From Methanothermobacter sp. (GTDB taxonomy: Archaea; Methanobacteriota; Methanobacteria; Methanobacteriales; DSM-23052): a stretch of 64,000 nucleotides of DNA. Shown here in pieces: positions 25,600-33,095 of the stretch (within the stretch, counting starts at the first letter, position 1; each line of letters opens with the position of its first letter). The translations under genes and the position numbers were made by a program. The stretch lies in NCBI GenBank assembly GCA_030055615.1, contig JASFYN010000002.1:1-64000 (forward strand), read 5' to 3'. The notes under the pieces are model-generated. The model did not search any database. It was not told the DNA's origin and saw nothing but the letters and a program-made list of their open reading frames with translations.

Positions 25600-25873
25600 A
25601 CCATCATCCCACAATATAGGGTGGCCTTCGGTAACTAGTAGTTCACAATTTCAACTTCATCTGTTGGGGGGTTTGAGGTTCAATTATACCCCCTATACAA
25701 CCTCTACTTTCCTAGTTATTTTACAAATTTCAGCCTTATGGATGATAAAGTCTGAGGACGGTTAAATTTTTTACGGCGACAGTGGGAGTCTTTTCGCTGA
25801 ATTATAATAGTGTCCATGGAAAATTTTATATTATGATGGGGAGAAGAAAGATTTTAGGAGGCGCGTGTAAGAG

Positions 25874-26026
25874 ATGAAGTTCGAAGATTTGTTTAAGGAA
25901 TGTCCACGTTGTGGTTGTAAGGATAAGATAGTTAAAAGGAAGATAATAGATGAACATAAAGCTTTTGCTAGTCTTAGGGAGATCATATGCGAAAAGTGTG
26001 GATATGTTTTCCAAAAGGGAGATTAG
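25874..26026 (+). CDS. Cys-rich 50-residue peptide, probable radical SAM substrate
   Basis: The small protein begins MKFEDLFKECPRCGC, has a charged middle segment and ends CEKCGYVFQKGD. It has five Cys (10, 13, 15, 39, 42). GGAGG lies 12 bases ahead of the ATG, and the stop is 3 bases before a radical SAM/SPASM gene. Size, Cys pattern and position fit the Cys-rich peptides that accompany this radical SAM family in methanogens (I recall TIGR04165 for the peptide). Two CxxC-like pairs could also make it a plain zinc ribbon. Confidence 0.75.
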   Translation: MKFEDLFKECPRCGCKDKIVKRKIIDEHKAFASLREIICEKCGYVFQKGD

Positions 26027-26029
26027 GGG

Positions 26030-27166
26030 ATGGTAACTTTGGCCTTCCATGTGATGATAGTCCCTACTATGAATTGTCCCTCGAATTGTAGTTATTGTTG
26101 GGGTGTTGAGCGGGACTCTACTGTAATGAGTATAGATATTATAAAGAAGATTGTTTCTTGGCTTAAAGGTTTCAGGATGGAGCCTGTGACTTTCACTTTC
26201 CATGGGGGCGAGCCTTTATTGGCGGGTTATGAGTTCTATAAGGAGGCTTTATCTTTATTGAGCAGGGAATTGGCCATGTTGAATCCTGCATTCGCTATAC
26301 AGACAAACCTTTGGTTAATGGATGATAGATTGGCTGAGCTTTTCGCTGAGTATAATATACCTATTGGTTCCAGTCTTGATGGTCCAGAAGAGATAAATGA
26401 TTTTCAGAGAGGTAGGGGATATTTTGAGAAGACGATGCGCGGATACAAAGTTGCTAGAAGGCATGGTTTGGATGTGAGTTTTATTAGTACTTTCACTTCA
26501 TATTCTATTAATTTTAAGGAGGAGGTTTTTAGGTTCTTTTTGGAGAATGGTTTGAATCTTAAATTGCATCCGGCTTTACCGTCTCTTAAAAGTGAAGATC
26601 CGAAGGAGTGGAGTATAAGTGCGAGGGAGTATGGTGAGCTTTTAGTTTATCTTCTTGATGAGTATTTGTCCCATTTTGGTGAGATTGAGATAAAGAATCT
26701 TGATCATTTTGCTAAGAGTTTGTTTATGAGGCGTGGTGTTGTATGTACTCTTGCAGATTGTGTGGGTAATACTTTTGCTGTGGATCCGCATGGGGATATT
26801 TATCCTTGTTATCGTTTTGTGGAGATGAAGGATTATGTTATGGGTAATGTGGAGGATAAGCCTAGTATGGATGATCTTGAGGAGTCCGAGGCTTTGAGGA
26901 GGCTTAGGGGTTGGAGAAGACTTGTCGATAGGGAGTGTTCGTCATGTGATTATTATCGTTTTTGTCTTGGTGGGTGTCCATATAATGCGATAAGTATTGA
27001 TAAGGATGGTAATATGGAGCTTGATGGTGTGGATCATCAGTGCGAGGCTTATAAGATGATATTTGGTGAGATGAGAAGGAGAGTTAACAGGGATTTTATG
27101 GTTCATGGGATTAAAGGTGGGGATAAGAAGGCCAGGATTATCGATTTAATGTTAAAGGAGCTTTAA
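26030..27166 (+). CDS. Radical SAM/SPASM peptide-modifying enzyme
   Basis: The 378-residue protein has the radical SAM CX3CX2C motif at C16, C20 and C23 (MNCPSNCSYCW), FTFHGGEPLLAG and IGSSLDGPEE. Its C-terminal SPASM region holds CTLADCVGNTFAVDPHGDIYPC, CSSCDYYRFCLGGCP and a last Cys near residue 344 (QCEAY), enough for two further iron-sulfur clusters. SPASM enzymes of this type install thioether or other crosslinks in peptides or oxidise Cys/Ser in sulfatases. No sulfatase is in the window, so the Cys-rich peptide just upstream is the natural substrate. I recall TIGR04083 (Mhun_1560 family) as the matching model. Confidence 0.85.
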   Translation: MVTLAFHVMIVPTMNCPSNCSYCWGVERDSTVMSIDIIKKIVSWLKGFRMEPVTFTFHGGEPLLAGYEFYKEALSLLSRELAMLNPAFAIQTNLWLMDDRLAELFAEYNIPIGSSLDGPEEINDFQRGRGYFEKTMRGYKVARRHGLDVSFISTFTSYSINFKEEVFRFFLENGLNLKLHPALPSLKSEDPKEWSISAREYGELLVYLLDEYLSHFGEIEIKNLDHFAKSLFMRRGVVCTLADCVGNTFAVDPHGDIYPCYRFVEMKDYVMGNVEDKPSMDDLEESEALRRLRGWRRLVDRECSSCDYYRFCLGGCPYNAISIDKDGNMELDGVDHQCEAYKMIFGEMRRRVNRDFMVHGIKGGDKKARIIDLMLKEL

Positions 27167-27895: not shown

Positions 27896-28444
27896 CTATA
27901 TTGTAACGAATTTTCCCGCTTTTGTAATAGAATACTTTTCCAGGAGATGGGACTGCTTCACAAGTCCCATCTCTATAAGGTCACTTAAATGCTTATAAAC
28001 CATGGCCCTTGATACTCCAACCTTTTTCGCGATTTCTACAGCAGTTAAATTTTCATCCTCTAAAACCTCTAAAATCTTAAGTTTTGAATCTGATATATCA
28101 AGCTTAGGAATGGGTAATCTGACCGAGGTTTCCCTGAAACAAGTGAAGATAGCATCAACACCCTCTTTGAAGGCTGCAAATGCTAGAAGACCTCCAATAT
28201 CGTCGCCATTATAGGCTACATAGACTTTACCATGCTTTTTAGCCCCCCTTATAATCTCAGATATCTTATAGCATGCTTTAAGTGGGTCTTCAGTTTCTAT
28301 TTTTATAAGACCGCCTTTAACGAACCTTTCGAGGGATAAGTCATTAAATTTTTCGCTCTGAACTAGTATCAAACCATCTACTTTATTCCTCATTGTAACA
28401 TCAAAGAGGCATCGGCCCCTCAAATTTGTAACAAGAGTCTTCAT
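27896..28444 (-). CDS. CARF-like domain with C-terminal winged HTH regulator
   Basis: The 182-residue protein has an N-terminal Rossmann-like part. VDGLILVQSEKF is followed by VYVAYNGDDIGGLLAFAAF and a LPIPKLD linker. The C-terminal winged helix holds EIAKKVGVSRAMVYKHLSDLI. This layout resembles Csa3-type CARF-HTH regulators, where a loop like NGDDIGG binds a cyclic oligoadenylate. No cas gene or CRISPR array is visible here, so it may act outside CRISPR. The start is ATG 28444, 3 bases after GGTGAT. It diverges from the glutamate synthase genes. Confidence 0.6.
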   Translation of the reverse strand: MKTLVTNLRGRCLFDVTMRNKVDGLILVQSEKFNDLSLERFVKGGLIKIETEDPLKACYKISEIIRGAKKHGKVYVAYNGDDIGGLLAFAAFKEGVDAIFTCFRETSVRLPIPKLDISDSKLKILEVLEDENLTAVEIAKKVGVSRAMVYKHLSDLIEMGLVKQSHLLEKYSITKAGKFVTI

Positions 28445-28534
28445 ATAATCACCTTCCACTAATCTCACATATAATCATATCAATCTAATATAAGTATTGA
28501 CTCTTCTATGATACGACTCTAATGGATGGGAAAG

Positions 28535-32390: not shown

Positions 32391-33095
32391 ATGAAAATTT
32401 CCCATATTTCAGTAAGTGATAAGATAACATTGCTCGTATGCGGGTGCAATTTCAAGTGTAAATATTGTTTTTTCAAACCGCAAGATTGCACAAGTCTTAC
32501 AGCGAAGAGCCTATATGATATGCTTTCCAAAATAAAAAAGGTATACAATCTCTCTATGATTACAATAGCCGGTGGGGAACCCACTCTCCAAGATGATCTC
32601 CCAAATTTGACGAGATTCCTAGATGGAAACTTTCACAGTATATTATCCACCAATGGATCACACTTACTTGAAATAATAGACAAATTAAAAGTCAATGAAG
32701 TCCATGTGAACCTTAAGGCTTTGGATGATAAAAAACATAAGATTCTCACCTCTCAATCAAATAAAAGAATCCTTGAAGTCGTAGAATATCTTGGAGAAAA
32801 CAAGAGGGATCTTAATTTTAAAGTGGAAATTTCAACCGTACTCATACCTGGTATAATTGGGGTGTCTGAAATTGGGAAGATCGCAAAATTTATTGGAAGA
32901 TGGGATCTACCATATCATATAATAGCCCATGTGCCCAGTCGTTTGAATGCGCCGAGACCATCAAAGAGCATATTAGAGGCTGCGAAGAAAATCAGCCAAA
33001 AATACTTATCAAATGTTTCAACTTCACTAGAATCTAGAAGGCATAGAAGAGGAAAAAAGATACTCATCCAAAAAAGTTTGATAATAAAAGAATAA
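32391..33095 (+). CDS. Radical SAM protein, activating-enzyme size
   Basis: The 234-residue protein has CNFKCKYCFF near residue 19 (CX3CX2C) and AGGEPTLQDDL. It lacks a SPASM domain and resembles short radical SAM activases (NrdG/PflA-like) and MoaA-like cores. GAGGTCCT precedes the ATG. The surface protein gene begins 16 bases after its stop, so both may share a transcript. Substrate unknown. Confidence 0.82.
   Translation: MKISHISVSDKITLLVCGCNFKCKYCFFKPQDCTSLTAKSLYDMLSKIKKVYNLSMITIAGGEPTLQDDLPNLTRFLDGNFHSILSTNGSHLLEIIDKLKVNEVHVNLKALDDKKHKILTSQSNKRILEVVEYLGENKRDLNFKVEISTVLIPGIIGVSEIGKIAKFIGRWDLPYHIIAHVPSRLNAPRPSKSILEAAKKISQKYLSNVSTSLESRRHRRGKKILIQKSLIIKE

Follow-up and report, generated by a model that had tools for sequence, protein, structure and literature searches.

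A radical SAM/SPASM enzyme and a proposed zinc-ribbon-like partner protein in Methanothermobacter: candidates for didehydroaspartate formation in methyl-coenzyme M reductase

The gene pair and its surroundings

The window, that is, the whole stretch of 64,000 nucleotides of Methanothermobacter sp. DNA that was analyzed, carries a small open reading frame and, 3 bases after its end and on the same strand, the ATG of a radical SAM/SPASM enzyme gene. The features of this gene pair are as follows:

25856..25863, + strand: TTAGGAGG, a putative ribosome-binding-site-like stretch upstream of the small open reading frame, seen in the sequence
25874-26026, + strand: small open reading frame, 50 aa, with Cys at 10, 13, 15, 39, and 42
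25874..26026, + strand: zinc-ribbon-like protein encoded there, TIGR04165 (methano_modCys), with knuckles C10/C13 and C39/C42
26030-27166, + strand: radical SAM/SPASM enzyme, TIGR04083, 378 aa, proposed didehydroaspartate synthase of methyl-coenzyme M reductase (MCR)
26075..26098, + strand: CxxxCxxC (C16, C20, C23), ligands of the radical SAM [4Fe-4S] cluster, invariant in 43 homologues
26744..27043, + strand: SPASM region with TIGR04085 and PF13186 matches and eight invariant Cys, ligands for two auxiliary [4Fe-4S] clusters
27041..27106, + strand: C-terminal helix, residues 338-359, with the invariant Tyr341, which is TAG in the M. wolfeii homologue

The two family models that the first-pass annotation had named were run against the two proteins, and both scores were above the curated cut-offs. 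The 50-aa protein is a member of TIGR04165 (78.4 bits over residues 1-49, cut-off 60), and the enzyme is a member of TIGR04083 (567.4 bits over residues 7-360, cut-off 300). The enzyme also exceeded the cut-offs of PF04055 and PF13186, which identifies it as a radical SAM/SPASM protein. Its SPASM cysteines are residues 239, 244, 260, 303, 306, 312, 316, and 338, and all 11 cluster cysteines, including those of CxxxCxxC, were invariant in the 43 homologues. Thus, the coordinates and the alignment confirmed what had been noticed at first sight, namely a small gene 3 bases ahead of an enzyme with the full set of cysteines for extra clusters. The AlphaFold2 model of the enzyme (pLDDT 91) had its best match in an anaerobic sulfatase maturase (anSME), anSMEcpe (4k39, E 5e-25, TM about 0.8).

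The absence of a sulfatase, an exporter, and a protease next to the pair had likewise been noted, and it held among the eight nearest genes tested, which encode HisG, a NUDIX hydrolase, two glutamate-synthase-like proteins, a histidine kinase, a Csa3-like HTH protein, and two proteins without a match. The Csa3-like CARF/HTH protein (27896-28468, − strand) scored just below its cut-off (49.9 of 60.2 bits), and its gene is kept beside the pair in related genomes. A second, small radical SAM protein of 234 aa is encoded in the window at 32391-33095 on the + strand.

Distribution of the two proteins

Among 152 Methanobacteriota genomes, the enzyme scored above the cut-off in 132 and the small protein in 136. 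When clear enzyme fragments were counted as presence of the enzyme, about 134 genomes carried both proteins, 14 carried neither, and 4 carried one alone, the last four being incomplete genomes or contig-end cases. Since nearly all of the 152 genomes carry both proteins, the pair is not a product of chance. The complete genome G004 was without both. The two genes are adjacent in most Methanobacteriota genera, and in genus g13 they lie at separate loci with both kept (e.g., G114, G119, G122, G128). In two genomes with unlinked genes, the gene of the 50-aa protein lies beside those of a small Cys/His protein, a ferredoxin, and a geranylgeranyl-reductase-like flavoprotein. In the apparent operon of the unlinked zinc-ribbon gene (L102:4813-8012, L113), the ferredoxin is of the 2x[4Fe-4S] type, and a DUF59 Fe-S assembly protein is encoded as well.

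The first-pass annotation had proposed to look for co-occurrence in other methanogens, and the two proteins do co-occur in Methanobacteriota, but elsewhere the enzyme is widespread without the small protein. In the order that includes family f76, the enzyme exceeded the cut-off in 46 of 50 genomes and the TIGR04165 protein in none of the 50. The enzyme was also above the cut-off in the Methanosarcina control, M. acetivorans, where its gene lies at about 4.09 Mb, and in many further families of the phylum to which M. acetivorans and f76 belong, including methanogens and ANME archaea. Because the enzyme is widespread without the 50-aa protein, the latter cannot be its general substrate. Of 48 genomes with the enzyme in which the MCR subunit gene mcrA was sought, 47 contained it; therefore, the substrate should be common to MCR-bearing archaea. 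NCBIfam lists TIGR04083 as a hypothetical equivalog named "peptide-modifying radical SAM enzyme," and the "peptide-modifying" part of this name was not borne out outside Methanobacteriota. No paper on TIGR04083 or TIGR04165, and no tested function of TIGR04083, was found in the open-access literature.

Character of the small protein

The five cysteines that had drawn attention to the 50-aa protein are present in the window copy, but they are not a family trait. Among 18 representative members, C10, C13, C39, and C42 were the only invariant cysteines, and C15 was Ser in most. The four lie in two invariant CPxCG-type knuckles, C10-P-x-C13-G and C39-x-x-C42-G. Pfam matches were weak and mostly to zinc-finger types, and all stayed below the cut-offs of the curated zinc-ribbon families, the best being PF14354 Lar (25.5 of 28.6 bits) and PF13248 (18.7 of 27 bits). 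The AlphaFold2 model (pLDDT 69) had weak matches in the PDB, none below E 0.1, and these were mostly zinc-ribbon proteins, RNA polymerase subunits and initiation factors among them. Conservation in the 18 members gave no sign of a division into leader and core. We read the protein as a zinc ribbon, and it is probably a lineage-specific partner of the enzyme in Methanobacteriota. The family name methano_modCys implies a peptide with modified cysteines, whereas conservation indicates a four-Cys zinc ribbon instead. A match to a general zinc-ribbon family had been named at the outset as the finding that would speak against a modified peptide. The knuckles and the prevalence of zinc ribbons among the matches go largely in that direction, but the matches themselves stayed weak and below the cut-offs.

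Further TIGR04165-like proteins were seen in several genomes. Those of family f3 encode a second one of 74 aa with an extra Cys near the C-terminus (L099:10872-11096, L242-L247), at a distance of about 5 kb and on the other strand, and more paralogues above the cut-off were found in G005 and G139-G142. The second, weak match in the window's own genome is a 206-aa CPxCG zinc-finger protein, PF19769 (L110:4108-4728; G000:C1:508107).

Linkage to mcr, mmp10, and atwA

Nearly all methane of biological origin is made by MCR, an enzyme with a number of rare modifications; mmp10 encodes its arginine methylase, and atwA serves in its activation. In the loci around the enzyme outside Methanobacteriota, mcr genes were the most widely shared neighbors. 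Of 73 genomes, 22 had the enzyme gene no more than 10 kb from mcr; they represent 8 of 35 genera and 6 of 13 families, while about 1% per genome would be expected by chance (P about 2e-9 for the genera in a rough binomial estimate). The remaining 27 of the 35 enzyme-bearing genera were not linked to mcr, and no such linkage was seen in Methanobacteriota, the window's own phylum. The linked arrangements vary. The enzyme gene lies directly after mcrA in all 10 genomes examined of genus g166, after mcrA within 1 kb in g269 of f132 and g289 of f140, convergent with mcrA in three genomes of g224 of f76, and 5 kb downstream in two genomes of f124. A tree built from 55 enzymes has at least eight changes between the linked and the unlinked state.

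A gene resembling mmp10 directly adjoins the enzyme in eight f76 loci, and its product at L240, the sole one of the eight that was confirmed, matched TIGR03278 with 582 bits (cut-off 350). The gene atwA (TIGR03269) lies within 2.4 kb of the enzyme in three genomes (L316, L320, L322). Two other neighbors were considered as AtwA and not accepted: a 570-aa ABC protein in ANME-2c-like genomes, which scored below the cut-off and was not counted, and a 592-aa protein in genus g13, which is RLI (ABCE1) instead. The former is a two-domain AtwA-like protein encoded upstream of the enzyme (L232, L233, L259, L260), and the two copies tested scored 331-334 of 517 bits.

The genome G635 has an mcrA 96-98% identical to those of two sister genomes without the enzyme, and its own enzyme gene, 1.3 kb after mcrA, encodes a protein 89% identical to the enzymes of g224 in f76, another order. 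To judge from these identities, G635 gained the enzyme horizontally beside its own mcr operon, which would be an acquisition beside the target. In G346 (L096:7200-7760), the enzyme gene is followed by a decayed second 3' end of mcrA, frameshifted and about 90% identical. This copy suggests recombination at mcrA, as if a stretch containing mcrA and the enzyme gene had recombined in. Overall, these gene neighborhoods suggest that the enzyme acts on MCR.

Agreement with the published didehydroaspartate pattern

According to a published table, didehydroaspartate is present in the MCR of M. marburgensis, M. barkeri, and M. acetivorans and absent from that of M. kandleri, M. formicicus, M. wolfeii, M. 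thermolithotrophicus, M. shengliensis, ANME-1, and Ethanoperedens (PMC9081873); it is also present in ANME-2c and ANME-2d (PMC12413448). Genomes were tied to the analyzed organisms by the identity of their McrA to solved structures, and named controls were added, with one genome per species, from a strain that may differ from that of the MCR structure. The enzyme was intact in G144, whose McrA is identical to that of M. marburgensis (1mro) at 547/547 residues, and it was present in M. acetivorans, in agreement with the modification there. Present as well in families f124 and f123, whose McrA is closest to the structures of ANME-2d (9qqt) and ANME-2c (9qm5), respectively, it was absent from G497, with an McrA identical to that of Ethanoperedens (7b1s) over 485 aa, and from the ANME-1-like family f126, with an McrA closest to 3sqg; in the M. 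jannaschii control it was below the cut-off. Thus, the state of the enzyme agreed with that of didehydroaspartate in every case tested, several of these being relatives of the analyzed organisms. The cases were M. marburgensis, M. acetivorans, M. wolfeii, Ethanoperedens, the relatives of ANME-1, ANME-2c, and ANME-2d, and, as the sole representative of the Methanococci, M. jannaschii.

A specific contrast was found in M. wolfeii, whose MCR structure is 5a8k (PMC9118554). The genome G151 encodes an McrA identical to it at 547/547 residues, and its enzyme gene has TAG in place of the codon for Tyr341, for which relatives have TAC and which was invariant in the 43 homologues. The stop removes the C-terminal helix 338-359 and leaves all Cys ligands before it, and no second enzyme copy above the cut-off was found in this genome. 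Since dN/dS gave no sign of pseudogene decay in this one assembly, the stop either arose recently or is an artefact, and it may reflect a sequencing error or be peculiar to the strain. M. wolfeii carries all other MCR modifications of M. marburgensis (PMC9081873), and the contrast between the two is therefore specific. Of those MCR modifications to which no enzyme has been assigned, didehydroaspartate alone fits the distribution of the window enzyme's family. The putative target Asp is conserved in McrA regardless of whether the genome encodes the enzyme, and thus no co-variation between the two was seen. A one-base frameshift was also observed in the enzyme gene of G149 (L100, 4712-5835), and if real it predicts that didehydroaspartate is missing there. 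It was set aside as evidence because the sequence is old and may contain an error.

Proposed function and alternative readings

We consider it likely that the window enzyme is an MCR maturase, namely a didehydroaspartate synthase, and that the 50-aa protein is its Methanobacteriota-specific partner and not a secreted ribosomally made, modified peptide (RiPP). For TIGR04083 as a whole, the case for an anSME-like MCR didehydroaspartate synthase with a dedicated 50-aa zinc-ribbon partner in Methanobacteriota seems to us evenly balanced. In anSME, a C-beta hydrogen is abstracted from Ser or Cys and the electron goes to the auxiliary clusters. In a similar manner, the 5'-deoxyadenosyl radical of the window enzyme would abstract hydrogen from one side chain in the protein substrate, and the SPASM clusters would receive the leftover electron. 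We infer that the target residue is the second Asp of the McrA motif G-[FY]-D-L-Q-D-Q-C-G (Asp450 in M. marburgensis), close to the thioglycine, which would lose one hydrogen each from C-beta and C-alpha, the latter as a proton, to give the unusual double bond of didehydroaspartate. In M. acetivorans, the residue is Asp470, within the McrA tryptic peptide L461-R491 that earlier work had measured (PMC7058361). The McrA of the window's own genome has this motif as GYDLQDQCG. The zinc-ribbon protein may serve, at a guess, in the recruitment of McrA or in stabilization.

The first-pass annotation took the pair for a RiPP-type cassette, in which the enzyme would modify the 50-aa protein by a thioether, a cyclophane, or another crosslink and the modified peptide would be the product. 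The 3-base gap, the scores of both proteins above the model cut-offs, and the near-perfect co-occurrence in the 152 genomes, even in a genus with unlinked genes, are what this reading would lead one to expect, RiPP maturation is the function of many SPASM enzymes, and the family names point the same way. However, the enzyme occurs in 46 and the peptide in none of the 50 genomes of the f76 order, the conserved cysteines are four and form zinc knuckles with mostly zinc-ribbon fold matches, weak as these are, and neither a leader in the 50-aa family nor a protease or exporter among the eight nearest genes was found. Moreover, M. wolfeii has kept the 50-aa protein intact while its enzyme gene is broken, and the closest solved structure is the protein oxidase anSME and not a crosslinking enzyme. 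We therefore do not favor this reading and regard it as quite improbable. The accompanying suggestion that the product acts inside the cell survives in part, as the lack of export is in line with action on MCR, but a peptide is not favored as the product.

Linkage to mcr, mmp10, and atwA shows a connection with MCR and not which residue is concerned, and the enzyme might instead introduce another modification, such as 6-hydroxytryptophan or an undescribed one, or serve in MCR assembly. The residues that are known speak against this: 6-hydroxytryptophan is absent from the enzyme-bearing M. marburgensis and Methanosarcina and present in M. formicicus, whereas S-methyl-Cys, N-methyl-His, methyl-Arg, methyl-Gln, and thioglycine all occur in M. 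wolfeii despite its broken enzyme (PMC9081873). Enzymes have also already been assigned in the literature to methyl-Gln, methyl-Arg, thioglycine, and S-methyl-Cys. Another role at MCR thus appears unlikely. A further reading concerns the small protein alone and is compatible with an enzyme acting on MCR: the two could be unrelated neighbors, the zinc ribbon having a housekeeping role of its own, such as in transcription, translation, or Fe-S handling. Its zinc-ribbon character and the two genomes in which its gene keeps company with a Cys/His protein, a ferredoxin, and a flavoprotein fit this idea, but the adjacency in most genera, the scarcity of genomes with one protein alone (about 4 of 152), and the joint loss in the complete genome G004 argue against it, and we hold it to be possible rather than probable.

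According to reviews and structure papers (PMC7581889, PMC8070964), no machinery that makes didehydroaspartate was known, and no later report of such an enzyme was found in the open-access literature, a scope that could miss one published elsewhere. If the proposed function of the enzyme as a didehydroaspartate synthase is true, it would explain the patchy distribution of the modification, e.g., in M. marburgensis versus M. wolfeii, and aid the heterologous production of fully modified MCR. It would also add the desaturation of Asp in an enzyme substrate to the supposed SPASM repertoire and put right the label "peptide-modifying" for a gene that most Methanobacteriota genomes and many other methanogens carry.

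Comparison with known enzymes

The closest known relative in structure is anSME (TIGR03942; PDB 4k36-4k39), which the predicted fold of the window enzyme matched over its whole length. Both share the CxxxCxxC motif and eight SPASM cysteines, and TIGR03942 was the second-best NCBIfam match of the window enzyme. Since its score of 189.5 bits is below the cut-off of 349, the enzyme is not a member of the anSME family. In addition, anSME is paired with a sulfatase, of which none was present among the eight genes nearest the window enzyme, and it produces a formyl side chain, whereas the proposed product of the window enzyme is a desaturated Asp of McrA. In terms of the substrate, the comparison is with Mmp10/MamA and MgmA, the radical SAM methylases of the active-site Arg and Gln residues of McrA. 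Like these two, TIGR04083 would be a radical SAM enzyme acting on McrA, and mmp10, which often adjoins mcr, adjoins the TIGR04083 gene in one order. However, Mmp10/MamA and MgmA are cobalamin-using methylases, while TIGR04083 has a SPASM domain and a predicted anSME fold and is proposed to catalyze a desaturation.
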